Assembly: GCA_016284295.1 (NCBI GenBank)
Contig: JAEEOP010000001.1
Location: 1-64,000, forward strand
Reading direction: 5' to 3'
DNA from: Methanomassiliicoccaceae archaeon
GTDB lineage: Archaea > Thermoplasmatota > Thermoplasmata > Methanomassiliicoccales > Methanomethylophilaceae
Length of the DNA stretch: 64,000 nt
The notes beneath the pieces were generated by a model. That model was not told the origin of the DNA, searched no databases, and saw only the letters and a program-made list of their open reading frames with translations. Every line of letters begins with the position of its first letter. Position 1 is the stretch's first letter. A program made the translations under genes and the position numbers. Below are positions 8,201 to 53,908 of the stretch, one piece after another.

Positions 8201-11200
8201 CGCTGGTGTATCCGAAGATGACATCATCGGTTATGTTCCATTGGGCGACGAAGATGTGCTCTCCGGGACCGATCTTCAAGTCCGCATATTCCTCCTTCAA
8301 CGGATCGCTGAACACCACCGTTCCATCGCTGAAGCCTGTACAGATGTATTCGCCTTCGCTGTGGGCGTGGAGGAAATCCTTAACCATTTGTTGGACGGAG
8401 GTCGCCCAGTATTGGGCCACTGTCCTGTCGCTCTGGGATGTGTACGAGAATCTGCTAGTGCCATCGCTGAATTCATCGATGGTGGTAACAAATACCATGT
8501 TGACAAGACCAGTGAAGGGGATAAACTCCACTTTCGGATTCAACGGTTCGGTGGCCTTATCCGCACTAGCCTCAAAGAGGGTGGCCAGAGCCATGGTGGG
8601 GCCGTTCCAAAGCTTCCATCCGTTGAATATATGTCCCTGGGCTCCGAATCCCGGCAGCGTTATTATCGTGTTTGCTTTGCAGTATTGGGTCGCAGGGGGA
8701 TGACCGTACTGTGAAGCGAGTATGACCGCATACTGCTCCTCGATCTTCTCGTTTTGCCAGACAGCTTCGAAGACGATCATTCTGGAGGTCGAATCCGTCG
8801 ACCTGACCGTATAGGTTTCCCCAGGCTGGAGATATGACACGCTGGCATTCCATCCGGCGAACACCTTCCCGGTAGGGGTAGCCCACATGTAGTTGGGGAG
8901 GAGGTACGCTCCGCTCGAGAAGGTCACATCTATTTTGCTGTCATCGTAGTAACTGTATCTGATCGTCTTCGTTGTTACCGATTCTTTCGAGGCCCACTCG
9001 GCTGTTATCGTCAAATCGGTATTCACATCAATGGTCTCTCCCGGAAGTTTGAGAGAACCATTGACATTCCAGCCGGAGAACGCTTTGTTTCCGGGGATGG
9101 GGAATTCGCAAAGAGGCAGCACATAACGGGATCCAGCCGCCAACGTTACAGTCTTTGCATCACCAGAACTGCCGTCCCCATGATAGAGCGTTATTGTGTA
9201 GTGTGAACCACTTACCCAATATGGTTCGAGTGCTATTTCGCCGATGGTTCCGGACGTGTTCAGCACGTATCCGGGATATACATCTTCGACATTATTTCCG
9301 ATGGTCATCTTCCATTTGAGGAAATATTTGTCTGATGGGCCCTGGAAATCATTGTTAGGGATGATGTACGATATTCCCGATTTGGCCTTGTAGGGGGCCA
9401 TGGATCCAGAACCGCCTCCGCTGTTGAAGACTACACTATATACGTCGGTGCTCTCGTCCTTCCATATCGGGATTATGACGCCGCTGGTGCTATCGGTCCT
9501 GTCTCCCGGATGGGAGCCGCTGGCCCAGATCTTCCAACCATCCAGGATCTTACCGTCGGCACCGACTATTTGAGGTATGGTGATCCGGTTGTTTTCGTCT
9601 GGAATCAACAGATTCGGACCTACGATCGCATTGCTTCCAGCGTTTTGCATGACCATGCCGTATTTCGTTGTGAATGCCGCTGAATAACCGTTATTCGGTT
9701 CTCCCCAGTCCGCCTGCAGGACTATCGCCCTTCTGCTGTCGAAATCGCTGGGGACCGGCATATAGATGATCTTGCCATCTGCTATGTCAATGCTCGTGTA
9801 CACGGCGCTATACGGGTTTACGGTGAATCTCACTATGCCAGATGTAACACCCCCTTGCTCCATAGTTGTGGGCAATTCGATGGGGGTTCCAAGTGTCAGC
9901 TCGACATCCTTGGTCTTGCTGATTCCAGGGTACGATATGTCTGGCTGAGTGGGGATCTCTGTTCTAAAGTCGTATGTGTACTTTGCCAGACTGTACTGCA
10001 GAGTCACTTTATGGGTACCGCTGTCGTCCAGAGTCACTCTCATCCTCTTCTCGCCGGGGGTGTCCCCATCCTCTACGATATATGTGCCGCCCTGGCAATC
10101 TTTAAGCGTGAGGTCATAGTTATCGATCATCGAGATGGAACGATATGGTTCCGATTCAGACCAGTTGTAGGTCTGTTTATGGATTTGTCTGTCTCCGATT
10201 TTGACCGTTACTTCGAATTGTTTCGTGGATGAAATCTTCTCGACCTTGACGAGGACGTCGGCAGGCGAACCGGTCTTTGTCCAATCGAGGTAAATATCCT
10301 GTTTGAGGATGGCGTTGGAGGATATTTCTTTATCATAGTTCACTTTTTGAGCGACCAGGAACCCTCCTTTGTCATTGTTGTCCCCGCCGATGTACCATGG
10401 GTAACCTCCGAATACCGAATAATTCAGATTGGCACCGAATGTGACCTCGACCGGAGGAGTACCTCCCCTGGGATCGTTGATGTGGTAACCTAGAGCTATC
10501 AGCCTCTGTAATGTTGCATGTTCGATCCCCACATACTTGGCGGTCTGGGCGATCACGTTTGCGGTCCCTTCGACCATCTCGTAGATCACCACGTTCGAAG
10601 CCGGGTCGATCCTGGGTCCGTTGGACGTATCTTGGGTCTCCGATATTGATTTGCCGTAGATCGTGGTTTCCTTGAAATCGGGCAATCCTGCTGCATGCTG
10701 GTTACCGGACATATCGCATATTTCCCTGTTCGGAGCCGGTTCAGTCACATTGATGTTGCTGACGAATCTGGACGACAATATATCGAACAGGAAGGATGAG
10801 TATTCTCCTGGTTCAAGGGATATGTTCCCTACCATGGCATAATCCTTGTACGGAGTGAAACCGATCAAGGGCCTATGCGTAACCGAGGATTGTCCGTAGC
10901 GCAAGACTAACTCATAGGAGCTTCCGAAGGGCACCTTGGCACTGTAGTGCTCCCTGTCGTTAAGGGAATCCGTATGGATCGCTTCGTAATAATCGTCGGT
11001 CTTTTTGTCATGAAGCAGTACTTGCGTGTATTCATAATCGTGCGCATTCAATGTCGTTCCGTCGAAGGACAGAAGAAGATCCACAATGCTTTTATTGCTT
11101 ACGTCGGCGGAGATCGAACAGTCCCCCTGTACGATAAGGGTCGCTGTCGAGTTGGTGTAGCTGTCTATGTAGTGCTTACCGGTGATGACCCATTTTATGA

Positions 11201-14200
11201 ACTGTCCTGTAGAGTTTTGAGGAGAGTACATTAAGGTTATCCTGTCGCCGTAGATGAAGTTCTGTCCCCATGTCGTTATGTATTCCACATCCCCTACCCC
11301 GTTTCTTGGTTCTAGGAATGCATCAACAATACCGAAATTGGGTTGGCTCAGAACGACTGTATAATTCAGTTGGGTCCAGTTAGCCCTGTAATTCATGGTG
11401 AAGATTGTTGAGCCTACGGTCTTGGAACTGACCGATCCACCTTTCACGATATAATCCAAGGAGACTTTGATCATCGGTTCAGATGTTGAGAATCTGCTGG
11501 TCAGATCTATGACTTCGCCTGCCACATACTTGACCGCATCTTCGTTATCTATCTTCACGCTGTAGAGCCTTTCCCAAACGGCCTCCAGAACGACTACGTT
11601 GCGATCATCGGCATCCGTGGCGATAGGTGTGTACTGGTTCGAACCCAGTACGCGCGAATCGTCTCCGGTTATTACCTGCCATCCGATATGTTTGTAATCG
11701 GCCGTATCAGAGAATGCGGGCAATGCTTGGGTGCTGTATGCCGGGTTATCGACGTATTTGGTTACCAAGGAAACCTTTGTCGTCGATTCCTTGGCATTAT
11801 CCCATCTTGCGTATACCTTAATCACCTTTCCGGATTTATCGTCGCAATCCGTATCCGATATGACGTATTCGTTACCGTATACCAATCCGCCCGATGTGTA
11901 CCAGCCGGTGAATTCGTGATCCGTCATCGAATATGTGCCAAGATCTATGGTCTCTCCTTCTATGCCGGTCCCTTTCGTGGCGATTATTTCAGTTCCGTTG
12001 TAGGTATTCACGGTGTACACATCTTTCCAGATGGCGACTAGCTCGATCTCATTGGTCCAGTTGGCATCTAGGGCGCGTACCGTGTATGTAGATCCCACCG
12101 CCGTATCTCTGACCATCCAGTAAGCGAACTTTTTCCCAGACGGTCCTGTAGTGTCCGCCGGGATGTTCTCCATCACATCGCCGGCCTTCTTGTCATTGTA
12201 GGGGGTTACGGTTCCATCGTAATGCAGAAGTTTCACGGTATAGCTGTCGCTGTCATTCTTATTGTCCATACCCTTGAGGACTATCTCGCCATTGGCGTTG
12301 GCATCCTTGGCCGATACGGTGTAGCTTCCGACCAGAAGCGGCGTCTCTATGATCGTCCCGCCTACATCTTTGGATATCAATTCGGCTCTCTTGATGTAAC
12401 CATCTTCATTGCACCAAACATGCAACTCCCTTTCAAGATTGGGGTCGGGATTCAGGGAATTGGCGATCGACACGTAATCGTTGTTCCAGCTTGCGAGGAC
12501 ATATCCGTTCCTGACCGCATCGTTCAATTTGTAGATGAAGGCATAGTGGTCTCCGACATCCGTGCTTTCGGTGGCCTGGCTCTCGTATATGCAGGTCCAT
12601 ATGCCATCCGAAGCCCTCTTGTAGAATCTTAAGTCGTCGTCCTCATTTTTGTAGTACACGTGCGATCCGTCCACATATTTCGTGAATATGTGCCCGTAAT
12701 CTCCGTAATACCTTGTATTGGACGAATCGACCGGATTGTTCAGATCCGGACCGTATGGGTATATCAGGAATTCTGTGGGATCGCTGATCACTATGGTGGA
12801 GCTGAACTGCTTATCCGATTCCTTGAGCCCCATGATCACGTCTATAGCAACAGTCGTGGTCTCCGCCACAAGATTGATCTCCAGCATCTCGACGGGGTTT
12901 CCCTTCCTGGGGAAAGTGTTCTTGTATATGTCGCTGTAGTATTTCCATAGACTTCCCTGATACGGTTCCAGATCCTCTTCCGTAGGTAGATACATGATCT
13001 TGGTGGTGACTTTCGAGTCCTCATAGACGGCAATATACTGATGCTCATCTATCGGGGATGTGACCTGCCACCTCACGAATACGCCGGTGAACTTGATGCT
13101 TTCCTCAGCGACCTTCATCATGGTCTTGTTGCCATGCCAGGGGTCCTCTGTCTCGAAAGTGGAGCCGTAATTAACCGATGCGTACACTTTCGGATTCTCG
13201 TTCATGATGTATGCTCTGTCGAAATCGTATTTGCCCTCATCATCGGGGTAGACGGGGATGGCGTTATCATTAGCATCAACTCCTCCGAACAGCACCAGCT
13301 TGCCAGCAGCATCATAGTACCAGAAGTTGACCCTTATCTCCTCTCCGATCCATTTGGCGTAAAGGGTGGTATCCTCGGTGATCCTGTCCGAGTTGTATGC
13401 CCAGTTGTAGATGAGCGAACGGTCCTTGTACCATCCTTGGAACTCGTAACCGGTGTAGGTCGGGGTGGGGAGGTCCTCCTTTCCGAGGAGGGCTCCCTGG
13501 TCCTCCTGGGCCACGTAGATCTTGTAGCTGGTACCGTTCATATTGTCCAGAGTGACTGTGTACATGTACCTGGCATACAGGCGAGTGCCATCCATGTCGC
13601 TGTTTACGCGCATGTTATAGTCGTAACGGTTGGTGAATGTCGGATCCAGATACCAGCCGTTGAAGTTGGATCCTGTGGGGTTCTCGCAGAGTTGACGTGT
13701 CAGCAGAGTGTTCTCATCGTAGTATCTCTCGGTCTCGATGCCACGGTCCACGAACACTATGAGGAACTTCTCCTTTTCCAAGACCACCAGGTCGGTGTAT
13801 GCCAGATACCCTCCCCTTTCGAATGTGATCCTGATGGTGGGGAGTTCGTCGGTAGTGGTCGATTTGAGTCCATTGACACTGAACGAGACGTTGGCGACGA
13901 TGTTGCCCAGCAGGGTACCTACGAAGCAGTCGTGGTTCCTCAGCGTATCGTTCGACAGATCCCATTGTATGTTGTTGCCGACGTATGACCATCCGCTCGT
14001 ATTGTCCATGTTGGTAATGGCGCTGACCGTTACCGTACCGACCCATGTGTTGCTGTCAGTGAATTGTTTCTTGATAGCATCGTTAGATGGTATCCAGACT
14101 GCAGTCGCTTCTTTGGGTCCATCGACTGTTATCACTTTGCCCGGAAGATATGACGTATTGCCGATTATCCAATGAGAGAACACTTCGGCGCCTCCGGGTT

Positions 14201-17200
14201 GATAGTAATTGCATTCGGGCAGCACATACTTCGATCCAGAGGCGACATTGATTTCCGATTTCAGCAGATCATTGAAACCAGATTTGAATGTTATCGTATA
14301 GGATGAGCTGCTCCAGACGGCCATCAGCTTTATGCTGCCTGTTATGCCTGTCGTGTCCAGGACATCTCCGGGACTTAATACGGTATTGTCCCCGCCTATC
14401 CTGACCCAATGGTCGAAGTGCTTGTCGGTGAATTTGAAGTTGCAGTTGGGGACTATGTATTTGACCCCCGATTGCGCCTCATAGGGCCTCATCACTCCGG
14501 AGCCGCCGCCCGCATCGAACTCGATAGTGTACGAGTTATTGTTCCTTTCAATCCAATTCGGTGTGATGACATCATTGGTGGAACTCTCGTAATAATCTCC
14601 AGGCCACTTCTCGACAGGGTTTGATCCGCCAACGGAAACGGACCAGCTCGAGAATACCTTTCCCACAGGTGCCGCGAATTGGTTGTTAGGCAAAGTGTAG
14701 CCGGTACCGCTTGAACGTGTCACATCGTTGTTCCCTGCTATCGAAACATCGACCACATTGGTATCAGCCATTCTGTATTGTTTAGGGATCAGGGTGCTTG
14801 ATTCCCCATCGCGCTTCCCGTCCTTGTCGGCATCGGTCTTGACCTCGACGGAGAATCTGTTGTTCTCATTCGTTCCACTGCTTCCGTAGATGTATACGTC
14901 GACACGGACCTCGATGGTGTTGGAGACCAGGGTCTTCGTTGCTTTTATGATCTTCCCGCCCGGCCCTACGGTTTCATAGGTGATGATCTTGACCTCCTGG
15001 AAGTTCAGCAACAGATACCCTACATACGATGTGGTGTCCAGAGGCTTTCCCATCAGTGTCATGTAGATCCTGAAACTTCCACTCTTGTTGCTCGAAAAGG
15101 ACTCCATAGGATTGGAGACGAGGCGAGAGTATTCTTCGGAGACGGGATCGTCATCCACGTTGCCCTTGCAGTAGTACGTTCCCTCTATTACCTCTTCTCC
15201 ATGGCCAAGGTTGACTTTGTGGGGGCTGGGGTCGTACAGCACCGGAACGTTGGGGTCGTTGACGTTATATCCGAGCATGAGTGCGAGATTCGCCTCATTC
15301 TCGAACTTGGTCACATCCGGTTTGACGAACGTGTACGGATGTCCTTTCTCATCGTTGGACATCTTGGTGAACGCGCCGCCGGTAAACATGATGCTGGTAT
15401 CGGTCTGGAACTTGGTGAGGTCTATGAAGGATTCCGAGGTCTGGGAGCTTTGGTCATCGACCAGCAGCTCCATGGTGAGCACCTTCTTCTGCATTCCCGA
15501 TATGAACCAGCAGCATGAGTCATCAGATACCGACGTCTCCGTTTCCTTGTAGATTCCGTCGGAGATGTATGAGAAACCGCCTTCCAGACTAGTTTTGGCT
15601 ATGGCATATGCACCATAACTCTCCTGGTTCATGGCGGTCATTGCAATGTATCCCTTTATCGTCCCGTACCTGAAGCTGTAGGATTCATCGCTCGCATTGT
15701 AATCGATGTGCCTGATATATACGGTGGTACCCGTATTGAACACGAACCTGTTGCTGGGAGAGGATTCGGTCGTGAAGCCTCCGCTGTTGTAGAGGCTGTT
15801 TATCTCGTCCACATTGTCTATCGGGCTCGCCAAAACTAAGGTTGTGTTGTTCTGCACTTTGAAGATGTCCACGTCGTAGATCGATAGCGATTTGGTCTGT
15901 CCGGCTACCGGGGTGATGGGGTTCCTTCCGGTGATCGTCATCGACGAGTTGGAGATGGTGAGCTCTTTGGTACGGTGGATTCCGGTCAGCGGCGATTTGC
16001 TGGTGAAGTTGGAGATGTAGACGCCAGTCTCACAGCTGTCATCGGCCCCCGTTAGACAGGAATTGCCGCTAGCCATGACGGCTCCTTTGACATCCATCAT
16101 GGTATTCGTACCGTCGATCCACACCTTTCCGTTTCCCATCACGAGAATTGCCTCGTAGGCCTCGATGTGCTCGGTATCGTTCGTCACGACATTTCCTCCG
16201 GCATAGATCGAATCGACCTCGATGGATGTGTTTGATTCAGAAGTGTTGATGACGGGGTTCGAATCATTGAGGGTAGGCAGGTAGTAGCCTATGTATACGT
16301 TGGTGCTTCCGTGCGTCTCTCCTTTGAGTCCCCCGCCGAACACAGATCCGGCGATGCTGCCACTTGAAATTACTACATTGGCGTCGCAGTCCATGACGGT
16401 GCTGCCGTCCCTCTTGTCGTTTCCTGCCTTGGAACCGCCGTAGACCGAGCCCTCTATTTTGGACGTTCCCTCTATGTATATCTGTCTGGTACCCGTGGTG
16501 GATGTCTTGCCAAGGGTTCCGAGACCTCCCGTGAATACATCGTTGTTCACCTTTCCGGAGTTTATATTCACGAAAATGTTGCCGTAGACCTTGCTGTAAC
16601 CGCCTCCGCCATATACCGATTTTTCCACTGCATGATCATTGTTCTCGATGGATAGATGGATCGTACCCTGCACCTTGGCATATTCCTGGTAGTTGCTGGT
16701 CAGGGATTCTGTCTCGTTGTAGCCGTATCCGGTAGATCCGAAATCGGCCCAATACATCTTCATCATATCGTTCTTGGACAGCACCCAGTTGAACCCGTAT
16801 TCATTCTTGTCGACATTGCCCTGGGAATCGAGCACTATCCCCTTTCCGGCACCGAACACGGATCCCAGGACCTTCGCATCATCGGAGATGCAGACGTTGA
16901 CCGGGCCTAGCACCGCCGCCACATAGCACGGGTTGCCCTGGCCGTCGCCCTCGTTGGCCGCGAAGCTGGTGACCAGCGATCCCGTGGCCGAACCGTCGTG
17001 GATGTTCCCGTAGTAGGACAGCACGGGTACCGACATCCCTCCTCCGTAGACGTTGCCGTTCACCGTTCCTCCGGAGATGTCGACGGATATGTTGCCGTAG
17101 ACGTAGGATCTTCCGGTGGACTTCCTGTTGCCGTCCTGGCCTTCGTTGGAGTTTTGGAAACCGGCTCCGGCCGTGTTGTGCTTCATCTTGTTGAGGCCGC

Positions 17201-20159
17201 CGCTCCCTCCTCCGAACACGTCGCCCAGGACCGTCCCGCCGGTCATCTCCACCCTTATGGACAGCTTGTCGGTGTTATCGACACCTCCGCTGTTAGGTGT
17301 TCCGACGCTTCCTCTGTAACCGCCTCCGAACACGTCGTGTATCGTTCCTCCTGCGATCTCGACCAGTATCTCCCCCTCGGTCATGGACGCGCTGTTGGGG
17401 TAGCACCAGGTGTCGAATCCCGCTCCGTACACGGTGGCCACCCTCGCATCCCCTCCGACGTAGATGTTGGCGAAGTTGACTGTGTTCCTGCTTGAATTGG
17501 AGTTGTTACCGTCGGTGATCGTACCGCAGGCCACACGGCGCACCTCCGCATGACCTGTGATCTCCAGGTACGCATAATCAGATATGGTGTAATGGGTACG
17601 CCCTCCGGCCTGGACATCCCATACGGACGATTTTCCGCTGACGAACAGGTGTGCGCATCCGAAGACATGTCCCTTCGAGCACCCGCCCTCTACCACACTC
17701 GATTCCGAGGTGACGATGTTCTTCCTGACGTTGCCGCTGGGAACGCTCTCATCGATGTATCCGGATTGCAAATCCTGCCAGTAATCGCTGCAGGAGAACA
17801 GGCCCAGCGCATAGGTGAATGTTCCCCCTACCTCTCTTGTCAAAGAGTCAGGTGTGGTCGTGGTTCCGTATACGTTTCCGACCGTGTTTTTGGCACTCGA
17901 TCCCGATCCTCCGACTATGGTGTCGGTGACGATGCATCCTTTCAGTACAAGATATGTGGAAAGGGGGACGGAGGTCGAACCGATGTTGCTCGAATTGCCT
18001 CCTCCACCGACAATGTTGTAGTAGATACCGCTGTGGATTATCAGGAATGTACCGACATTCACCATGTTCTCCATCGACGAGTCGGACCTTCCGAAAACCA
18101 TCCTCTTGGTGTCGACGGCCTTGGTGATGCTGTTCTTCCCTCCGCCGTAGACGGTGAGGAAGATGGAGCTCGAACCGCTTTGGTCGGATGTCAGGTTGGC
18201 ATCGCTGGCCTCGGCGGCGGGCATCGCTATCCCGGTTCCTAGGATCATCCTGTTCCCGTTCGCGTATAGTCCGTCGTTTCCGTCGCCGTGCTTTCCGGTG
18301 GATCCGCCCCTGATGTTGACATTGTCGATTATCACATCGTAGCTGCCGCCAGCATCGTTCGTATGGAGCTGCACATTGGAGAACGATATCTCCGCTTTGC
18401 CGTACTTCTCTGTGACCGATCTGTTCGCTTTCCCGATATCGGTGTTGATGAGGGGGTCGGCGGTCCTGTACGTACCCATGGGGATGTCGGTGATCCTGAT
18501 GGTCGAGCCGTAGTGTCTGAGGTAGTTGATGGTCGTGAAGACGGTGTCCCCGTCGAGGGAGGTCTTCTTGTGATAGCTGTCATCCGAGATCGTCCCCAGG
18601 TTGCTTGCCTCCGAATTCTTCGTATTCAACAGCAGCAGACGGTAGGGTTTCAGCTCGAAGACGTTCAGCCTGTCGACATTCGCGGAGTTAAGGGTGCATT
18701 CGCAGTACTCCCCGATGTCTTTCTTATCCCATGTATTGTCTTTCGGAATCGTCAGGGATTTGGCGATGTAGAGGTTCGGTACGACCCATATGGCCTCCAA
18801 TTCAGTGACGCTCCAATCGACGACCTCCCCGGGATAGATCACATCGTCGAACCAGATAGCCGTGACAAGCGTGTCGCCACCGATATGCACTATCTCTCCA
18901 GGATAATGGTAGGAGACGATGCCGTCCGTGGCTTCCACGGCCCAGATCCTGAATGTGGATTTCTGGGTTATCGTGAAGTTGCAATGGGGTAGCTCGTAAC
19001 CGTTACCCGCTCTGATATCGATAGTGGCCTCAGTCCCTCCGATGCCGTTGGCCAAGGTCACCTGGTACGAAGCGGCCGAATCCTCCGTTTTGGCCGTGAT
19101 GTCCGTATTTTCGGAGACGGTTATCGTTTCTCCCGCTGATTTCGTCTCCGTTCCGACGACCCAGCCTGTGAAGGCTTTGCCCTCGATAGATGCGGTATTT
19201 TCAGGCAGCGCAATCTGGCGGCCCTTCAAGACGAACATCGGGTCGATAAGGTTAGTGTCGGCATTTTTGAATGACACCTTGCAATAGTCGCTTCCAGCAT
19301 AGGCCGATTCCAACCAGTTCGCAGTGATCGTAGTGTCCTTTGAGACGGAGATCTCGTCGCCAGGGTATTTCAGCCCATCGATTCCCGATACCGACCATCC
19401 GGCGAAGATGTACCCGCTCTTCAAGAATTTGCATAACGGCAGGGTGTATTTGTGGTAGGCTACGGTCCTCTCACTTGCCATATCTCCAGAGGTAGATCCG
19501 TTTCCGCTGTAGGACAAGGTGTAGCTCCTCTCCTTCCAGCCTCCGAAGACCTTGTTGATGTTGACCGTTGTATTGTAGGAGACGGTCAAGTCGACTACGG
19601 CTACCTTGTTCTCGGCCCCGCCTATCACCTGGAAGTAATATTTTCCATCCTTCTGATCATAACTCACTTCGGTGAACGATGAATCGCTGCCAGTGCCGAA
19701 TCCCACAGCTTTGATCGTGATGCCGGCCGGCATCGTCACGATGTACTTGCCACTATCCGAGCCTGTATTTATCCCAGTGAATTTCACGGTCAGTTCTAAG
19801 CTGCTGACATCGTCCCAGGTCACCTGTTGAGCCGGCCCCTGCCAATCCTTGACCTCGCCGCTTATCTCGCCGGTGTCTCTCCAGAATTCGGGGTTGTACT
19901 CTGTCGACTTTATCCCCTGATATGTGTTCACCACGATGCTTGTGGCCGTTCCACTCGTATCCAAAGACCTTTCTCCAGCAGAGTTCTCTACGACCTCTAC
20001 GGTGTGGACTCCGTCACCCGGGTAATATGTGATCGTACCGCCCGGTATGGATTCCTCTACATCCTGATCAGCGTCCGTAATGGACACTAAGATGATGAAC
20101 GCCGTCACTATCACGGCAGCCAGTGCTAGCAGTGCATTTCCGCTCTTCGTCAGCTTCAT
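5238..20159 (-). CDS. Giant secreted InlB-repeat protein (about 4973 aa)
   Basis: I place the start at 20159 rather than an upstream in-frame ATG at 20180, because GAAAGGAG lies 10 bases before the inner ATG and the protein then begins directly with a signal peptide (MKLTKSGNALLALAAVIVTA). At least fifteen InlB/Listeria-Bacteroides-type repeats (a GW motif near the centre, a closing ATW or AVW strand) are spread over the chain, for example near residues 215-290, 1880-1950, 2260-2330, 3560-3640 and 4680-4740. Residues about 620-1290 form a glycine-rich stretch of repeated G-GG turns (VYGGG, VFGGG), as in right-handed beta-helix autotransporter-like or adhesin passengers. Residues about 4030-4530 are unusually rich in Tyr and Asp with YxY and WI/WE motifs, and I recognise no family there. 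There is no C-terminal anchor. Likely an extracellular adhesin-like protein. Confidence 0.85.
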   Translation of the reverse strand: MKLTKSGNALLALAAVIVTAFIILVSITDADQDVEESIPGGTITYYPGDGVHTVEVVENSAGERSLDTSGTATSIVVNTYQGIKSTEYNPEFWRDTGEISGEVKDWQGPAQQVTWDDVSSLELTVKFTGINTGSDSGKYIVTMPAGITIKAVGFGTGSDSSFTEVSYDQKDGKYYFQVIGGAENKVAVVDLTVSYNTTVNINKVFGGWKERSYTLSYSGNGSTSGDMASERTVAYHKYTLPLCKFLKSGYIFAGWSVSGIDGLKYPGDEISVSKDTTITANWLESAYAGSDYCKVSFKNADTNLIDPMFVLKGRQIALPENTASIEGKAFTGWVVGTETKSAGETITVSENTDITAKTEDSAASYQVTLANGIGGTEATIDIRAGNGYELPHCNFTITQKSTFRIWAVEATDGIVSYHYPGEIVHIGGDTLVTAIWFDDVIYPGEVVDWSVTELEAIWVVPNLYIAKSLTIPKDNTWDKKDIGEYCECTLNSANVDRLNVFELKPYRLLLLNTKNSEASNLGTISDDSYHKKTSLDGDTVFTTINYLRHYGSTIRITDIPMGTYRTADPLINTDIGKANRSVTEKYGKAEISFSNVQLHTNDAGGSYDVIIDNVNIRGGSTGKHGDGNDGLYANGNRMILGTGIAMPAAEASDANLTSDQSGSSSIFLTVYGGGKNSITKAVDTKRMVFGRSDSSMENMVNVGTFLIIHSGIYYNIVGGGGNSSNIGSTSVPLSTYLVLKGCIVTDTIVGGSGSSAKNTVGNVYGTTTTPDSLTREVGGTFTYALGLFSCSDYWQDLQSGYIDESVPSGNVRKNIVTSESSVVEGGCSKGHVFGCAHLFVSGKSSVWDVQAGGRTHYTISDYAYLEITGHAEVRRVACGTITDGNNSNSSRNTVNFANIYVGGDARVATVYGAGFDTWCYPNSASMTEGEILVEIAGGTIHDVFGGGYRGSVGTPNSGGVDNTDKLSIRVEMTGGTVLGDVFGGGSGGLNKMKHNTAGAGFQNSNEGQDGNRKSTGRSYVYGNISVDISGGTVNGNVYGGGMSVPVLSYYGNIHDGSATGSLVTSFAANEGDGQGNPCYVAAVLGPVNVCISDDAKVLGSVFGAGKGIVLDSQGNVDKNEYGFNWVLSKNDMMKMYWADFGSTGYGYNETESLTSNYQEYAKVQGTIHLSIENNDHAVEKSVYGGGGYSKVYGNIFVNINSGKVNNDVFTGGLGTLGKTSTTGTRQIYIEGTSKIEGSVYGGSKAGNDKRDGSTVMDCDANVVISSGSIAGSVFGGGLKGETHGSTNVYIGYYLPTLNDSNPVINTSESNTSIEVDSIYAGGNVVTNDTEHIEAYEAILVMGNGKVWIDGTNTMMDVKGAVMASGNSCLTGADDSCETGVYISNFTSKSPLTGIHRTKELTISNSSMTITGRNPITPVAGQTKSLSIYDVDIFKVQNNTTLVLASPIDNVDEINSLYNSGGFTTESSPSNRFVFNTGTTVYIRHIDYNASDESYSFRYGTIKGYIAMTAMNQESYGAYAIAKTSLEGGFSYISDGIYKETETSVSDDSCCWFISGMQKKVLTMELLVDDQSSQTSESFIDLTKFQTDTSIMFTGGAFTKMSNDEKGHPYTFVKPDVTKFENEANLALMLGYNVNDPNVPVLYDPSPHKVNLGHGEEVIEGTYYCKGNVDDDPVSEEYSRLVSNPMESFSSNKSGSFRIYMTLMGKPLDTTSYVGYLLLNFQEVKIITYETVGPGGKIIKATKTLVSNTIEVRVDVYIYGSSGTNENNRFSVEVKTDADKDGKRDGESSTLIPKQYRMADTNVVDVSIAGNNDVTRSSGTGYTLPNNQFAAPVGKVFSSWSVSVGGSNPVEKWPGDYYESSTNDVITPNWIERNNNSYTIEFDAGGGSGVMRPYEAQSGVKYIVPNCNFKFTDKHFDHWVRIGGDNTVLSPGDVLDTTGITGSIKLMAVWSSSSYTITFKSGFNDLLKSEINVASGSKYVLPECNYYQPGGAEVFSHWIIGNTSYLPGKVITVDGPKEATAVWIPSNDAIKKQFTDSNTWVGTVTVSAITNMDNTSGWSYVGNNIQWDLSNDTLRNHDCFVGTLLGNIVANVSFSVNGLKSTTTDELPTIRITFERGGYLAYTDLVVLEKEKFLIVFVDRGIETERYYDENTLLTRQLCENPTGSNFNGWYLDPTFTNRYDYNMRVNSDMDGTRLYARYMYTVTLDNMNGTSYKIYVAQEDQGALLGKEDLPTPTYTGYEFQGWYKDRSLIYNWAYNSDRITEDTTLYAKWIGEEIRVNFWYYDAAGKLVLFGGVDANDNAIPVYPDDEGKYDFDRAYIMNENPKVYASVNYGSTFETEDPWHGNKTMMKVAEESIKFTGVFVRWQVTSPIDEHQYIAVYEDSKVTTKIMYLPTEEDLEPYQGSLWKYYSDIYKNTFPRKGNPVEMLEINLVAETTTVAIDVIMGLKESDKQFSSTIVISDPTEFLIYPYGPDLNNPVDSSNTRYYGDYGHIFTKYVDGSHVYYKNEDDDLRFYKRASDGIWTCIYESQATESTDVGDHYAFIYKLNDAVRNGYVLASWNNDYVSIANSLNPDPNLERELHVWCNEDGYIKRAELISKDVGGTIIETPLLVGSYTVSAKDANANGEIVLKGMDNKNDSDSYTVKLLHYDGTVTPYNDKKAGDVMENIPADTTGPSGKKFAYWMVRDTAVGSTYTVRALDANWTNEIELVAIWKDVYTVNTYNGTEIIATKGTGIEGETIDLGTYSMTDHEFTGWYTSGGLVYGNEYVISDTDCDDKSGKVIKVYARWDNAKESTTKVSLVTKYVDNPAYSTQALPAFSDTADYKHIGWQVITGDDSRVLGSNQYTPIATDADDRNVVVLEAVWERLYSVKIDNEDAVKYVAGEVIDLTSRFSTSEPMIKVSLDYIVKGGSVSSKTVGSTIFTMNYRANWTQLNYTVVLSQPNFGIVDAFLEPRNGVGDVEYITTWGQNFIYGDRITLMYSPQNSTGQFIKWVITGKHYIDSYTNSTATLIVQGDCSISADVSNKSIVDLLLSFDGTTLNAHDYEYTQVLLHDKKTDDYYEAIHTDSLNDREHYSAKVPFGSSYELVLRYGQSSVTHRPLIGFTPYKDYAMVGNISLEPGEYSSFLFDILSSRFVSNINVTEPAPNREICDMSGNQHAAGLPDFKETTIYGKSISETQDTSNGPRIDPASNVVIYEMVEGTANVIAQTAKYVGIEHATLQRLIALGYHINDPRGGTPPVEVTFGANLNYSVFGGYPWYIGGDNNDKGGFLVAQKVNYDKEISSNAILKQDIYLDWTKTGSPADVLVKVEKISSTKQFEVTVKIGDRQIHKQTYNWSESEPYRSISMIDNYDLTLKDCQGGTYIVEDGDTPGEKRMRVTLDDSGTHKVTLQYSLAKYTYDFRTEIPTQPDISYPGISKTKDVELTLGTPIELPTTMEQGGVTSGIVRFTVNPYSAVYTSIDIADGKIIYMPVPSDFDSRRAIVLQADWGEPNNGYSAAFTTKYGMVMQNAGSNAIVGPNLLIPDENNRITIPQIVGADGKILDGWKIWASGSHPGDRTDSTSGVIIPIWKDESTDVYSVVFNSGGGSGSMAPYKAKSGISYIIPNNDFQGPSDKYFLKWKMTIGNNVEDVYPGYVLNTSGTIGEIALEPYWVSGSHYTITLYHGDGSSGDAKTVTLAAGSRYVLPLCEFPIPGNKAFSGWNVNGSLKLPGETIDVNTDLTITAEWASKESVTTKTIRYSYYDDSKIDVTFSSGAYLLPNYMWATPTGKVFAGWNASVSYLQPGETYTVRSTDSTSRMIVFEAVWQNEKIEEQYAVILASQYGHPPATQYCKANTIITLPGFGAQGHIFNGWKLWNGPTMALATLFEASADKATEPLNPKVEFIPFTGLVNMVFVTTIDEFSDGTSRFSYTSQSDRTVAQYWATSVQQMVKDFLHAHSEGEYICTGFSDGTVVFSDPLKEEYADLKIGPGEHIFVAQWNITDDVIFGYTSDSHADVTALMDAASSESIPRDIERHYRVNTEVSINIKLDTGYMIDLESTRGELGYKLIKSFVYGDDGTQYYIQDGRFYQNIDNVWTEVAAPAHYYYMDDYENKYVLNGVSEVYRYEGSEWVPYKLESVAGKDGLFIMKYLTTDKAENQNKIYQMIRAGTFYEGTIVKCKVEGDTYPYEVYRYDGDIKGELLYRITSEGIVKDPDDKEVDPMFFNSTSCTYDDWLILGDVIKTKTYIFSTLLTECDSPALGFFKQGYTYVGSGGDKGLYNAKGTKLIGIGPYKDESKAEYDGGSYAYLLIDGKLVRYVVYSASDDKKIMYSMYDGYLSEYDCIEDNGKYYQGTPFVEKKGDVIVKKYRDNYGNIWATTASGEFYVQDQYVYTFSLTSNSEDYYWIHYDSEDDDEPDVKKRGDSGWEDLSHDIPANYYFKDSYNNYFIGNNLVKGRVAVLYVDGIEYKVNYIDVNNVTKELYRGTYSESSVEYGITKDSSVLKKEGDKWIASDKKVYLDPYGNKEYRNDYSMIMVNAKYNTDHEYIEDNKTYHMSTFGNVYQDWLGSPVELSDRRGYIWTFLLQDDLYLRIHTKPITYNVHFIVNGELVDPLGVFSVSTIDTQGKEYYGTDIPKYKIVAFDGYLGQDIKWYTDANYTNEYTIKGDSRYIKSYAPENFLGRIYQFYAVDNISLYAHLGNYVVNTHSYDDTQEVVQYSLTADNNDNIVLPTNHYEKEGYVFVGWALEDHHGMRFYTYAPGETVNATRFGTSASDPETGVVDLYPFYLSNGATTKYYDGKEYFMKIENDLNNQHDPFGDIDAIAVRYSDQPIESISQSDNAEGVSFKHVTDKTVYYCIEIKTRYNESDNRYGNTVPSHTVTGDSQVEIKRVDAYAIAPTVHLTDNKEGTTEISVDITDIRTLNLAEGDYTIHWATMDGDGNRAMSSSTDTIELSDPGSINTYAWVEFSEKERAYASIDYNLLYIDGTILIYPYDSSKDENVS

Positions 20160-20215
20160 CGTCTTATGTCTCCTTTCCATTTCCGATCACTTTTTTGAAT
20201 GTTATCCAGTTTGAT

Positions 20216-28016: not shown

Positions 28017-28679
28017 GTGAAATACTCGCAGCACGTCCTAGTGACCATGCAGATCGAGGAGGAGTTCAAGGTCCTTTTCAGGGAAGGCGAAATCGGCGTG
28101 CTGTACATCTATGAAGACGGCTCCAGCTACTACTCGTTCTTCCTCAACAAGAACTGCCCCGAAGGCATTCCCTCCGACCTCTAGGCCTCCAAGGAATCCG
28201 AGGGGATGATCCGCTTCTTCAAATGGATCATGATCGATAAGAACCTGGTCGGCGGCAAGAGAACGATCTACAGCAAGGGGGAGGTGAAGCTGGTCCGCCG
28301 CCCCAAGGAAATCGGCAGGTTCATGGTGTACAGATGCGGAGCGGAGAAGGGGTCCGTGGAGTATTCCGAGGTGGACCATTCCGCTCCCCACTGCGAAGGC
28401 AACGGCCCGATAGGGGATATGAGGGAATGGACCTCATGGTACTGCTTCAACAAGAGGGACGACGGGACCTTCGAGGCGGAGCTGGACGAGGCCTGGTGGT
28501 GGGGAGGCGGCCACAACGACGGCGGTACCATCCACGCGGACATCCCGATCGAGTGGATGGATCTGCCCTACGAGGAGTTCCTGGACAGGGTGCTCGGATT
28601 GGCCGCCGCAAGACATTACGGGTTCACCGTGGAGGAGCTTCTCGGAAAGAAGGGGCTGAAGGAGTTCTTCGGGTTCTGA
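28017..28679 (+). CDS. Hypothetical protein (220 aa) with an in-frame TAG codon
   Basis: A continuous frame opens at a GTG (28017; an alternative ATG lies at 28047) and runs to a TGA at 28677-28679, interrupted only by TAG at 28182-28184 (residue 56). Both sides read as ordinary coding sequence. Before the TAG come EEFKVLFREGEIGVLYIYED and a Tyr/Phe-rich strand; after it come ASKESEGMIRFFKWIM and a long acidic, Trp-rich segment (AWWWGGGHNDGG). I recognise no family. A downstream ATG at 28206 could start a shorter 157-residue product, but that would discard a well-formed N-terminal region. If TAG is pyrrolysine here, the full product is made; if not, the gene is a nonsense mutant. Confidence 0.55.
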
Positions 28680-47450: not shown

Positions 47451-47699
47451 ATGCAGACCTATGTCATCGAAAAGACAGATAAGACGGTCAAACTCGGCTT
47501 CAAGGACGCCAACCTCACGCTCATCACACCCCTGATCAAGCAGTTCAACGAGGATTCGAACGTCGTGCTCGTCAGGTACATCGACAAGCACCCCGAGCTG
47601 GTCGACCGTGCGCTCTACGTCGAAGTCTCCAAGGGCGACGTCATGGATGCCATCGACAAGGCGGCCAAGGCTGTATCCGAGTATTATTCTCTCAACTGA
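47451..47699 (+). CDS. rpoL: DNA-directed RNA polymerase subunit L
   Basis: The 82-residue protein shows the Rpb11/RpoL plan: a short strand (VKLGFKDANLTLITPL), a middle strand around YIDKHPELVDRALYVEV, and a C-terminal helix (DVMDAIDKAAKAVSEYYS). It pairs with subunit D to form the archaeal assembly platform. The sequence is divergent from euryarchaeal RpoL, and my call rests on pattern and size. A TATA-like TTTATTATAG is about 27 bases upstream. Its stop overlaps the truD start. Confidence 0.72.
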   Translation: MQTYVIEKTDKTVKLGFKDANLTLITPLIKQFNEDSNVVLVRYIDKHPELVDRALYVEVSKGDVMDAIDKAAKAVSEYYSLN

Positions 47700-49012
47700 T
47701 GCCGATGTATCGCAGATGCACTACGGCCGAGGCCGGCATCGGGATGCACAACTACCTGTGCGACACCGACGGCACCGGCGGCCATCTCAAGACCCTCCCC
47801 GAGGATTTCATAGTCCGCGAGATCTCGGACCCTCCGAGGAGGAAGGACAACGGGGACTACTCCATAGCGACCGTGACCGCCAGGAACTGGGAGACCAACC
47901 GCATGGTCAGGCTCATGTCCCGTTCCATGGGCGTGTCCAGGGACCGCATCGGCTTCGCCGGCACCAAGGATAAAAGAGCGGTCACCACGCAGCTCATGTC
48001 CGTCTACGGTACGCCGGACCTCTGGGAGAAGGTGGACCTGAAGGACCTGGAGGTCAAGGACATCTACAGAGGGGCGAGGGGCATCCAGATCGGCGATCTG
48101 ATCGGCAACGAGTTCGACATCACCGTCAGAGACTGCACCATGGACCCGAGCCTTTTCAAGGAGACAGTGGAGACCGATATCGACATAATCAAGAGGACCG
48201 GAGGGTTCCCCAACTACTTCGGCGTGCAGAGGTTCGGAGCCGTGAGGCCTGTCACCCACCTCGTGGGAGAGAGGCTGGTCCGCGGCGACATCGAGGGCGC
48301 CGTCAAGACCTACATAACATTCACAACGGACGAGGAGGAGGAAAGGCTCCGCCTCAAGAGGAAGGAGCTACAGGACACCCCCATCGCCGAATGGGACAGT
48401 ATCTTCCATTCCATACCGCCGGCCATGGCATTCGAGAGGATGATGGTCAGCGTACTGATGAAGGACCCGGAGGATTGGGTCGGGGCCATCGAGATAGTTC
48501 CGTCCAACCTCCAGATGATGTTCACCCATGCCTACCAGTCATGGCTCTTCAACGAGATGCTCAGCAGGAGGATGGACGCGGGCCTTCCGCTCAACGCACC
48601 GGTCGAAGGGGACATAGTCATCCCCCTGGACGAGAACAAGGTGCCCCAGCACGAGAATCCCATCATGACAACCTCCAAGAACATCGACCTGGTCGCAAGG
48701 CAGGTCAGGGCCGGACGCGCGTTCGTCACGATAACCCTGTTCGGATCCGACGGCCAGCTGGCCGAGGGCGAGATGGGTGAGATCGAGCGCAAGGTCATCG
48801 AGGAGAACAAGCTCAGCCACGAGGATTTCGTCATCCCCGGTCTGCCCAAATGCACATCCAAGGGAAGCAGGAGGGAGATCGTCTGTCCCGTTAAGGACAT
48901 TGCTAACGAGATCCGCCAGGACGGATACAGCCTGAGGTTCTCTCTGCCCAAGGGCAACTACGCAACATGCCTCCTGAGGGAGTTCATGAAATCCGAGATG
49001 AGGGATTACTGA
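47699..49012 (+). CDS. truD: tRNA pseudouridine(13) synthase
   Basis: The 437-residue protein has the TruD catalytic loop GFAGTKDKRA near residue 88, in which the Asp attacks uridine, then NYFGVQRFG and the TruD insertion domain. It converts U13 of tRNA to pseudouridine. The start overlaps the rpoL stop (TGATG). Its last seven bases overlap the convergent TPR gene. Confidence 0.93.
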   Translation: MPMYRRCTTAEAGIGMHNYLCDTDGTGGHLKTLPEDFIVREISDPPRRKDNGDYSIATVTARNWETNRMVRLMSRSMGVSRDRIGFAGTKDKRAVTTQLMSVYGTPDLWEKVDLKDLEVKDIYRGARGIQIGDLIGNEFDITVRDCTMDPSLFKETVETDIDIIKRTGGFPNYFGVQRFGAVRPVTHLVGERLVRGDIEGAVKTYITFTTDEEEERLRLKRKELQDTPIAEWDSIFHSIPPAMAFERMMVSVLMKDPEDWVGAIEIVPSNLQMMFTHAYQSWLFNEMLSRRMDAGLPLNAPVEGDIVIPLDENKVPQHENPIMTTSKNIDLVARQVRAGRAFVTITLFGSDGQLAEGEMGEIERKVIEENKLSHEDFVIPGLPKCTSKGSRREIVCPVKDIANEIRQDGYSLRFSLPKGNYATCLLREFMKSEMRDY

Positions 49013-52000
49013 GCGCCCAGGATCAGCTTTATCTGACGTGCCTGGTAGACACCTACCTTGCACGATTTCATGATATCATAAGCGGACTTGCCCTGGACCC
49101 TCTCCAGGACGATCTTCAGGTTGTCGTCCCTCTGGACCTCGACCCTCATGGCCTTCTTCACATAGGCGCAGAACCTCTTGGCCTGGTCCACATCCTTGAA
49201 CTCGCCTTTGACGAACACGGTCTCGAGCGGAAGGTCAGGATTGGTCTCCAGATCCCTCCAGCCGATCTTGAGGATTATCTCGTTGGACAGGCGCTCCATC
49301 TTCTGGAACTCCGGAGTGCCGGGAGTTATCTCTCCGAAGGCCACGGTCTTCTCAATGTAATCCATAATGGCCTGGGCCTCCGGACCCTCGAATCCCGATG
49401 ACAGCAGCAGATCCTCGTCCAGCGGGGATGATTTGGAAACGAATGCGCGCCTGAGAATCTTCTCCGCGGACCTCTTGACCTTCGTATCGACGACTGCGAC
49501 AGACTCGGTCTTCCTGAGGCTGTTGGCCTCGTCCTCGTGACCGGCACTGACCAGCACCTCTATCATGCGGTCCCTCTGGCCGGCATCGTCGACGTCCAGG
49601 GCCTTGAACATGCGGTAGACCTCGGTGACGCCGGCATCCTTGCGGGCATCCCTCCTGGTCCTGGCGAGCAGGATCATCGCCTCCGCATCTGTGGGGGATG
49701 TCTCCAGCAGTTCCACCAGCTGGGCCTCGGCACGGGAAAGGTACTCCCTGTCATACAGCTTGTTGGCCAGCATCAAACGGTAGACGGAGTTGTCCGGATC
49801 CCTGTTGACCGCTGTCGTATAGCTGTCGATGGCCCTGTCGTAGTAGCCCAGCCCCTGCTGGGCGTCACCCTTCTTGATGAACAGTATGGGGATGGCCAAT
49901 CCCAACGAGATGGCCTTCTCATACTCCTGGAGCGCACCGCGGTACTCGGACCTGCCCATCCTGACGTCCCCCATAGCCTCGTGGTACAACGGATTCTTGG
50001 GATCGTTCCTGATGAAATCCGTCAGCAGGTCATGGGCCTCCTTGTTGTTGCCCATGTCCAGCAATATGCCTGCCTTCAGGCAGACGTACTTGGACTTCTC
50101 GCCGCCGATGGACATGGCGCGGTCGATGTTCCTCACCGCACCCTTGTAGTCGCCCATGCCCCTCATGGATTCGGCGATTGAGAACGCCGCCTCGGCGGAC
50201 TCCAGGACCTTTGCCTCGTCCTCGTCGGGGAGGACTATCTCCTCGTGGACAATGGAATCGGCCACCAGATCCTCCGATCCCTCCTCCAACGAATCCAGGG
50301 CCATCCTGAGACGGTCGGATTTCTCGTATTGGGAGTCTAGACCCGCTTCTATGACCCTGATGGCATCGAACCTCTGGCCGTAGACGGCCAAGCAGGAAGC
50401 GAGCTCCAGTATAGCTCCTTCGGAATGGGTGGCCTCGTGGATCTGCCTGGCCCTCCTCAGAGCCTCCTCTGTGGAGCCGGATTCCCTCAGGACCCTCACG
50501 CGCATCAGCGCGATGTCCTCGTTGGCCGGCTCCCTGACTGCGCATATCTCGATGAAATGCAGAGCATCCCTGTAACGCCCGACCTTCTCGAGTATGGTGG
50601 CCTTGCGCACCAGAGGATTGATCGACGTCGGATCCAGATCGATGGCCCTGTTGAGCGACTCCACAGCACCGTACGGGTCGCCGGCGTTCTCCTGCACTAT
50701 GGACTTGGAGATCCAGTACTCGGACCTGCCGAGGTCGAGGAGGACAGCACGGTTGTATGCGATCTCGGCCGATTCCAGGTCGCCCCTGGCCTCGTCGGCC
50801 ATCCCTTTGGAATGCCATATCACCGCGTCGTGCGGAGCGAGCTCCGCCGCGGAAGCGTATGATGCTGAAGCTTTGATGTAATCCCCCATGCAGTACTCCG
50901 CATTGCCTTTGAGCCTGCGGATCATCGGATTCGGAGGCAGGGACTTCTCCAGGTCGTTGCACAGGAACATGGCCTCCCTGTAGAACCCGTTGGTGATCAT
51001 CGTCTCGACGACCGATATGGCGTTCTCCGCCCTGGGGTCCAGGCGGAGCACGTTCCTCAGCGTCATCAGCGCGCCGTTGGAGTCCCCCTCGATGTTCATG
51101 GCGCTGGACAGCGTCAGCATCGTGGGGATGTCGTCGGGCTCGTCGTCCAGGAGCGTCTTGCAGATGTCCAATGCGCCCTTGGTGTCGCCGTTGGCGATGA
51201 GCAGGTCCTTCTTGAGGACCAATGCATCCCTGTTCTTCGGGAACTCCGTCAGGATCCTGTCGCACTCCTTCTCCGCCAGCTTGGGGAAGCCGGAAACGAA
51301 CCGGATTCTTGCGGCCAGCGCCCTGACGGACGGGTCGCGCTTGGCGTAGCGAACCGCTTCCCTGGAGGACCTCCCCGCGCCGGGGACGTCGCCCCTGTCG
51401 AGGAGCACCTTGGCATTTGAAATCAGATAGGTCGGATCCCTCTTGTTGGAACGGCCCATCCTGTCCAGTATCTTCCTGGCCTCGTCGGAGTGCCCTGAGG
51501 CCAGCAGCATCGAGATGATGTCCGAATAGTCCTGGGTCCCTGCGAACTCGCTGTCCAGGAAGTCCTGGATCGAACTCATTATGTCGTTCTCGGAACCGAT
51601 TATCATGTATGCGGAGACCCTGCCGCGCATCGCCCTGACGGAGGTCTGGTCTAGCCTGTCGTAAAGATCCAACGCATAATCGGGGCTCTTGTCCGCTATG
51701 AAGGCCTCCGCCGCCTCGTAGATGACGTAAGGCGGAGCGATGTCCAGTATCTTCCCGAACATCATCTTGGCGGAGCGCCAGTCCTTCTCGTCCATGGATG
51801 TCCTGGCCGATGCTAGGATGAACTACCAGTCGCCCTTGGCGTAGTACTGGGAATGGATCAGCCTGTCCGTGGCGGCATCCCTGTTGCCCTGGAACCATTC
51901 CATGTAGATCTGGTAGAGCTCCCTGAGCCTCTCGTCCTTGGGGACCCTGTCCTTGCTGCCCTCGTAGGCGTTCTGGACGGAACGGAGGTCCACCCAAGGG

Positions 52001-52470
52001 CCGTCCGGGTCGTCGGATATCAGGATGTCATACAATCTCTGGCAGCTGGGGTCCAATTCCAATCCCTTATGAGCGCTGGCGACGGAGTTGACCCTGTCCC
52101 CCTCGCCGTGGTAGAGCTCCGCTTCGGCGAGGTATCTGTGGAACATGTCCTTGGAGCTGTTCTGGGAGAGTATCTCCGCGGCCGCAGTGATCTCGTCCTG
52201 CGAGACGAGGATCTCCGTTGCCCGGATGTCCGGGGTGCAGTCCTGCGGACGCGCCTTGGATGCTATGTTGCGGACGGTGGTGACCGCTATAGAACCGTAT
52301 TCCCTGATCATAGCGTCCATCAGAGCTGTTAGAATAGCGGGATGGATGCTGCCGTCGGCGGCGAGAATCCTGCTCGCGATGGCGTCCAACTTCTTCTTCG
52401 AGGGTTTGCCTACCAGTGACCTCCACGTACGGAACTCGTCGGAATTGCCAAAGACCGGTAGGTTCTCCAT
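49006..52470 (-). CDS. Large TPR protein with an in-frame TAG codon (1154 aa if read through)
   Basis: One reading frame runs from ATG 52470 to TAA at 49006, broken only by TAG at 51823-51825 (residue 216). Before it lies a 215-residue helical part ending LIHSQYYAKGDW; after it FILASARTSMDEKDWRSAKM continues directly into TPR repeats. About twenty TPR motifs fill residues 210-1040. The last 150 residues resemble a DNA/RNA-binding-like tail (KLILGAQ end, with VFVKGEFKDVDQAKRF). The TAG falls inside a helix of a repeat, so reading through would complete the repeat. An ATG at 51795 could start the downstream part alone, but it has no convincing promoter or ribosome site. Likely a cytoplasmic scaffold. 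Confidence 0.7.
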
Positions 52471-52581: not shown

Positions 52582-52654
52582 GCAGCTGTGATCTAGCTGG
52601 TTAGGATCTGAGCCTTCCAAGCTCATTGCCCGGGTTCGAATCCCGGCGGCTGCA
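52582..52654 (+). tRNA. tRNA-Gly (TCC)
   Basis: A 7-bp acceptor (GCAGCTG with CGGCTGC, one G-U), a D arm, an anticodon stem TGAGC/GCTCA with loop CTTCCAA (anticodon TCC), and a T arm CCGGG/CCCGG around TTCGAAT give a complete cloverleaf with discriminator A. CCA is not encoded. A TTAAATAC box lies about 32 bases upstream. Confidence 0.93.
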
Positions 52655-52837
52655 CTCATATTTTACACCTCATCTCATTGAGTAGCAACACTGATTAGCT
52701 CATATTGCGCAAACATTGACGAAACAGCCACGCAACCATAATGCTGAATCCAATGATGATACACGCCTGCGATGACTCGGGATCGCACCAGACAGGATTA
52801 CCGAGAGTATTAACGCTACGAAGGCTTTGTGGACGAT

Positions 52838-53908
52838 ATGCCCTACTTCGACAGGAGTGACGCGTACGATGAACTGCCTGTTCTGCCACCCACTTACGAT
52901 GTGGAAACGACAGCGGTCATGAGAGCCTGCATACGGGCCTCGAGATCCCTATCCGAATTGCAAGGTCTGATAGCTACGATCCCAGAGAAAAGGATCCTGT
53001 TGGAATTGCTGCCTCTTCAGGAATCGGAATCCAGTTCTGCCATCGAGAACATCGTATCCTCCAAGAAGAGATTGTTCATGGCCACATCGGGGGATGCCGA
53101 GAGCTCGGACAGATTCACGAGGGAGATCATAAGTTACAACCGCGCCCTTATGTCAGCCGCCGGCAAGATTCCGGACCATAAGACGATCAAAACCATCTGT
53201 TCGATCATCAGGGGTGAAGATGTCGAATTCAGAAAAGAGGGGGATGAACCTATCGGGCTCTACGTCCCTGGGACCAAGACTCCTGTGTATACCCCTCCAT
53301 CAGGCGAGATGGTTGAAAAGCTCATGAAGAATCTGGAGGAATACATCTTCACGGATGATGAGGTCGACCCGTTGATCAAGATGGCAATAATACATTATCA
53401 GTTCGAGGCGATACATCCGTTCTTCGATGGCAATGGCCGTACCGGACGCATCCTCAACGTTATCTACCTCCAATACAGCAGGCTATTGAAGGATCCTGTA
53501 CTCTTCCTCAGCGGATACATCATACATAACAAGACCGAATACTACGACCTTATCAGAAGGGTCTCTTCCAAAGGGGAATGGGAACCTTGGATCCTGTTCA
53601 TGCTGGATGCTGTGGATCAGACATCGAGGTATACGATCGGCCTCATCCGCTCCGTTACCGAGCTGATGAAGGATTGTAGAGAGGTAGCAGTCGATTCAAG
53701 AATCCCGGAGAAGTGCATAGACGTCATTTTCAGCAATCCGTTTTGCACGATCGGCATGATGATGGATTCCATCGGTTGCAGCAAACCCACGGCGATCAAA
53801 TATCTGCGCACTCTTGAAGACTCACGTATCCTGAGATCGTCCGTATCAGGAAGCCAGAAGGTATTCGAGAATGTGAAACTGCTTGAACTCTTTTCCAAGG
53901 GCCGGTAA
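52838..53908 (+). CDS. Fic-family protein with N-terminal inhibitory motif
   Basis: The catalytic motif HPFFDGNGRTGR (near residue 195) marks a Fic AMP-transferase. The inhibitory helix motif S-x3-E-N is present as SSAIENIV near residue 70 on the same chain, making it a class II Fic protein kept inactive until the helix moves. A C-terminal winged-helix-like part (FSNPFCTIGMMMDSIGCSKPTAIKYLRTLEDS) may bind DNA. A GTG three codons earlier (52829) is an alternative start. Targets are unknown. It sits just after tRNA-Gly, a common site for acquired genes, but I found no attachment repeat. Confidence 0.88.
   Translation: MPYFDRSDAYDELPVLPPTYDVETTAVMRACIRASRSLSELQGLIATIPEKRILLELLPLQESESSSAIENIVSSKKRLFMATSGDAESSDRFTREIISYNRALMSAAGKIPDHKTIKTICSIIRGEDVEFRKEGDEPIGLYVPGTKTPVYTPPSGEMVEKLMKNLEEYIFTDDEVDPLIKMAIIHYQFEAIHPFFDGNGRTGRILNVIYLQYSRLLKDPVLFLSGYIIHNKTEYYDLIRRVSSKGEWEPWILFMLDAVDQTSRYTIGLIRSVTELMKDCREVAVDSRIPEKCIDVIFSNPFCTIGMMMDSIGCSKPTAIKYLRTLEDSRILRSSVSGSQKVFENVKLLELFSKGR

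Follow-up and report, generated by a model that had tools for sequence, protein, structure and literature searches.

In the window (the whole 64,000-nt stretch of DNA analyzed here, from a methanogenic archaeon), a gene for a long TPR-repeat protein is interrupted by a TAG at codon 216, which is very probably a chance amber mutation in an intact gene, translated as pyrrolysine (Pyl, the 22nd amino acid) to give one protein of 1154 residues. The open frame, its orthology, the constraint on it, the Pyl cassette and TAG usage in the 30% of the genome that was sampled were established by computation, and we infer that Pyl would be inserted at residue 216 by efficient, constitutive incorporation, as a near-neutral residue. 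A sequence-only reading of the same DNA had already proposed one protein read through at the TAG, with Lys or Pyl at residue 216, and this agrees with the single-ORF orthologues, the full Pyl cassette and the mostly sense TAGs of the sample. Coordinates are collected in Table 1.

Table 1. Features of the window and TAG-containing genes elsewhere in the genome (locus and contig given for the latter).
Feature	Position	Strand	Basis or remark
TPR-repeat protein gene	49006..52470	-	translation; Pfam TPR families; single-ORF orthologues; convergent with truD
In-frame TAG, residue 216	51823..51825	-	Glu/Asp in 20/20 aligned relatives, GAG in most
N-terminal part upstream of TAG, 215 codons	51826..52470	-	translation, ORF list
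Longest ATG-started ORF downstream of TAG, 929 aa	49006..51795	-	ORF list
truD (tRNA pseudouridine-13 synthase), tail-to-tail neighbor, synteny anchor	47699..49012	+	NCBIfam TIGR00094
tRNA-Gly (TCC), divergent neighbor of TPR gene	52582..52655	+	found close to the TPR gene in relative G018 too
Second probable TAG-containing gene of the window	28017..28676	+	TAG 28182-28184, residue 56 of 220
O-acetylhomoserine sulfhydrylase	L058:14594-15886 (C1)		one in-frame TAG crossed by family model
Citrate synthase	L045:3363-4709 (C36)		one in-frame TAG crossed by family model
CbiJ-CbiE-CbiT fusion	L071:2998-4977 (C16)		one in-frame TAG crossed by family model
Dihydropteroate synthase (DHPS)	L071:15090-15887 (C16)		one in-frame TAG; family-model end past TAG
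Own-genome citrate synthases	C36:23363-24694; C21:26646-27959		one TAG each

The TPR gene and its orthologues

Translation of the TPR gene revealed exactly one in-frame stop, the TAG at residue 216 (plus-strand positions 51823-51825), in the context ...YYAKGDW-[TAG]-FILASARTSMDEKDWR..., and a terminal TAA, with 1154 residues in all if the TAG is counted as one. The shifted frames of the minus strand contain 51 and 9 stops, so that chance would hardly leave 1154 codons with a single stop, and codon bias and coding potential were positive across the TAG. The translation and the listed ORFs, including that of 215 aa at 51823-52470 (minus strand), matched exactly the earlier claim that parts of 215 and 929 residues share a frame with the TAG as their sole interruption. 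In a Pfam scan, the tandem TPR motifs of the protein exceeded the family cut-offs, and the 215-residue N-terminal part taken alone matched no Pfam family.

The AlphaFold model of the protein (mean pLDDT 87.9, pTM 0.49) is a long TPR solenoid of helix pairs, whose global shape is uncertain given this pTM. Helix 215-227 has residue 216 as its second residue, within its first turn, and the helix pairs continue through this site, as had been expected from the TPR periodicity read across the codon in the sequence. Acidic residues in the first turn of a helix commonly favor the helix dipole. A fold search of the PDB with the model returned generic helical-repeat solenoids (Ski3, Ctr9, IFT-A and OGT; TM-scores 0.15-0.26 by query length) and no match that names a function, and the Pfam scan found no match for the conserved C-terminal region. 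The best description of the protein is a scaffold whose C-terminal region is conserved.

Our orthologue search covered 60 related genomes and found homologues in 51 of them. Within the genus and family each orthologue is a single ORF, in most cases about 1000-1300 codons long, and nearly all relatives checked have truD as its tail-to-tail neighbor, indicating that the homologues are true orthologues. We looked for relatives in which the two parts are encoded by separate genes; the genus and 37 named GTDB loci yielded no such split orthologue. In-frame TAA or TGA codons inside the match were likewise absent from these 37 loci, except for L103 (1R26), which is out of frame, apparently via an indel.

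In an alignment of 21 sequences, the relatives were continuous across the TAG column and all 20 carried Glu or Asp there. Because most of the nearest relatives have GAG at this codon, one G-to-T change explains the TAG. A TAG in this column occurred only in our genome and is therefore not conserved among the orthologues. Relative G024 has a TAG of its own at residue 112 of the gene, in a column that is mostly aliphatic. Taken from these sequences, a special role for residue 216 is not supported, given the Glu/Asp of the relatives and the different placement of the G024 codon.

No match to the TPR gene was found in 9 of the 30 same-genus genomes (G001, G002, G006, G009, G017, G022, G025, G026 and G029), several of which are >90% complete, and the gene may have been lost in a subclade. 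A gene for a Fic-like protein (HPFFDGNGRTGR motif; window 52829-53908, plus strand) adjoins the tRNA-Gly gene; it is absent beside the TPR gene in the relatives checked and is possibly an insertion at the tRNA.

We measured constraint as departures at columns that are invariant in the other close orthologues, and compared the protein with six other close sequences. Departures amounted to 6.7% before the TAG (0-15.2% in the six others) and 11.0% after it (5.0-12.7%). Third-position changes dominate on both sides of the codon, and the comparison revealed no frameshift. We rejected relaxed constraint 3′ of the TAG, as departures there fall within the range of uninterrupted orthologues. From the departure rate, the third-position changes and the intact frame, we concluded that protein-level selection acts normally on the sequence 3′ of the TAG, or did so until very recently.

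Pyrrolysine cassette and TAG usage in the genome

Contig C36 carries mtmB followed, in order, by tRNA-Pyl (CUA), pylS, pylB, pylC and pylD. MtmB scored over its cut-off with one TAG inside, PylS scored above its model cut-off, and ARAGORN identified the tRNA-Pyl with its CTA anticodon; pylB, pylC and pylD were assigned by their order and sequence after pylS. With both this cassette and a TAG-containing methylamine methyltransferase present, the genome is predicted to belong to a Pyl-decoding host. It also encodes a single full aRF1 that has no internal stop, which could still release some ribosomes at UAG.

To describe TAG usage, we took stretches totaling 551 kb (30% of the 1.86-Mb genome) and identified coding segments in them by their codon bias. 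Segments ended at TGA in 419 cases, TAA in 47 and TAG in 14 (n = 480). Ten of the 14 TAGs are best read as sense, and these lie in mtmB, the TPR gene, the genes for O-acetylhomoserine sulfhydrylase, citrate synthase, the CbiJ-CbiE-CbiT fusion and DHPS, a gene for an OmdA-domain protein (which has another TAG as well) and three uncharacterized genes, one of them at window position 28182. The remaining four comprise one likely false ORF and three with another in-frame stop 0-6 codons further on, such that possible TAG-terminated segments number 3 of about 480 in the sample. Scaled from the sample, the ten sense TAGs correspond to about 34 (roughly thirty) TAG-containing genes genome-wide, if the sample is typical. 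The cobyrinate amidotransferase-like gene (L071 at 1654, C16) and the purD-like gene (L066 at 5544, C11) end at TAG, with a second stop 0 or 1 codon past it, as if TAG alone were non-stopping.

Family models or orthologue alignments crossed the codon at 6 of 14 TAGs, compared with 1 of 466 TAA/TGA codons (Fisher p about 1e-9), a contrast that is approximate because only some TAA/TGA pairs, twelve in number, were scanned. Many of the flagged TAA/TGA pairs mark boundaries between genes of an operon, the stop being followed directly by a start codon. Among the twelve, a model crossed a stop in one only, a DUF4143 gene with a TAA (L058:12199-13161, C1), which seems to be interrupted and is likely a real pseudogene. 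For the second TAG-containing gene of the window, coding signal was present on both sides of the TAG and the Pfam scan gave no match. Two very long ORFs (4980 and 1492 aa) also follow one another in the window (5238-20180 and 758-5236, both on the minus strand).

We also compared TAG positions between orthologues. One DHPS was found in the genome, with its TAG, and none of the other DHPS matches had an internal stop (41 genomes searched). Both citrate synthase genes of our genome have a TAG, as does one gene each in relatives G017, G018 and G006 (five genes from four genomes within the genus), and no TAA or TGA occurred in the citrate synthase matches. The five TAGs occupy four alignment positions, one of which is shared by G017 and G006, and the residues of other sequences at these positions are Arg/Lys, Met/Thr, Val/Ile/Thr and Cys/Ser/Arg. 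This scatter points to UAG as a drifting rare sense codon, as opposed to a functional Pyl at each site.

Alternative explanations

A recent nonsense mutation would stop translation at residue 215 and leave an early pseudogene, too young for its remainder to have decayed. Only this genome indeed has a TAG at 216, and the lack of a match in 9 of 30 same-genus genomes means that the gene may be dispensable and only starting to decay. Against this stand the usual constraint on the part after the TAG, the complete Pyl cassette, the identity of the interrupting codon (TAG, never TAA or TGA, both here and in the G024 orthologue) and the recurrence of the pattern in DHPS, both citrate synthases, O-acetylhomoserine sulfhydrylase and CbiE, and we consider a pseudogene unlikely. 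We judged it very unlikely that the TAG is a GAG miscalled in sequencing or assembly. The change is a single base and the assembly is fragmented (45 contigs), but errors would not prefer TAG to TAA or TGA over many genes, and the same TAG pattern is seen in other genomes.

Just as improbable as a miscall is the production of two separate proteins, one of 215 residues and one of 929 residues that is initiated on its own from the ATG at 51795 (residue 226). The sequence-only reading had found no ribosome site there, and this held in part: a weak AGGA does lie five bases upstream of the ATG, but it is formed by Arg and Thr codons, and Met226 is not conserved, with Val or Ala in close relatives. 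In the AlphaFold model this ATG sits at the end of the TAG-containing helix, so neither truncated product would keep an intact helix pair, and the lack of split orthologues also argues against two proteins. Finally, a selected, functional Pyl at 216, or a programmed partial read-through giving a short and a long form, is compatible with the sequence alone. Against this reading stand a codon private to this genome, the Glu/Asp of the relatives, the scatter of TAG sites across orthologues and a search for PYLIS-like RNA structure 3′ of the TAG that gave nothing notable (z -1.2). We regard it as extremely improbable.

The reading of the TAG as a chance amber mutation translated as Pyl would work as follows. 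A GAG-to-TAG mutation would have arisen by chance at residue 216 of an otherwise intact TPR gene, and PylS and tRNA-Pyl(CUA) would insert Pyl in the first turn of the TPR helix, making the mutation tolerable. UAG would effectively be a rare sense codon in the lineage, with few or no genes needing it as a stop, and amber mutations would thus be tolerated at scattered, unconserved sites. Pyl216 might nevertheless be mildly harmful, as every relative has an acidic residue at this position.

Relation to known systems and meaning

Pyl in the methylamine methyltransferases encoded by mtmB, mtbB and mttB is catalytic and conserved. The TPR gene resembles these genes in its single in-frame TAG, predicted to be served by the same cassette, but differs in that relatives have Glu/Asp at its TAG site, which looks incidental. 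Kivenson and colleagues reportedly described in 2025 an archaeal ‘Pyl code’, sporadic in archaea and supported by proteomics, in which all TAG codons are read as Pyl; in our genome, ten of the 14 TAGs of the 30% sample are best read as sense from sequence analysis.

Closer to our genome, ‘Ca. Methanomethylophilus alvus’ has 16 genes with in-frame TAG besides the methylamine methyltransferases, and TAG makes up 1.6% of its stops (Borrel and colleagues, PMC4153887, Table 7). Our organism belongs to the same order and likewise has in-frame TAG in non-methyltransferase genes and TAG rare as a stop, although our TAG count comes from a 30% sample of another genome, the TPR gene is not recognizable by name in their list and different housekeeping genes carry TAG here. 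Borrel and colleagues argued that amber mutations within coding sequences would be stably maintained in a host of this kind (PMC4153887). The pyl operon is complete in methanogenic archaeon ISO4-H5, a rumen member of the order, and in-frame amber codons occur in 46 of its genes, including housekeeping genes such as adenylate kinase (PMC5011839); the organism and genes described here are different. The TPR TAG is therefore an instance of a known phenomenon, ordinary in its class, to which it adds a new gene.

More broadly, we think it reasonably likely that UAG has effectively been reassigned to Pyl in this lineage, with enzymes as central as DHPS and citrate synthase depending on constitutive Pyl and amber codons drifting in and out of any gene. 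Standard gene callers cut such genes at the TAG, and about thirty proteins, including core metabolic enzymes, would be truncated here if the sampled third is typical. Since orthologues with and without TAG occur at many positions, these loci are clean test cases for the neutral evolution of a reassigned codon, and they suggest that the dependence of the organism on pyrrolysine exceeds its use of methylamines.
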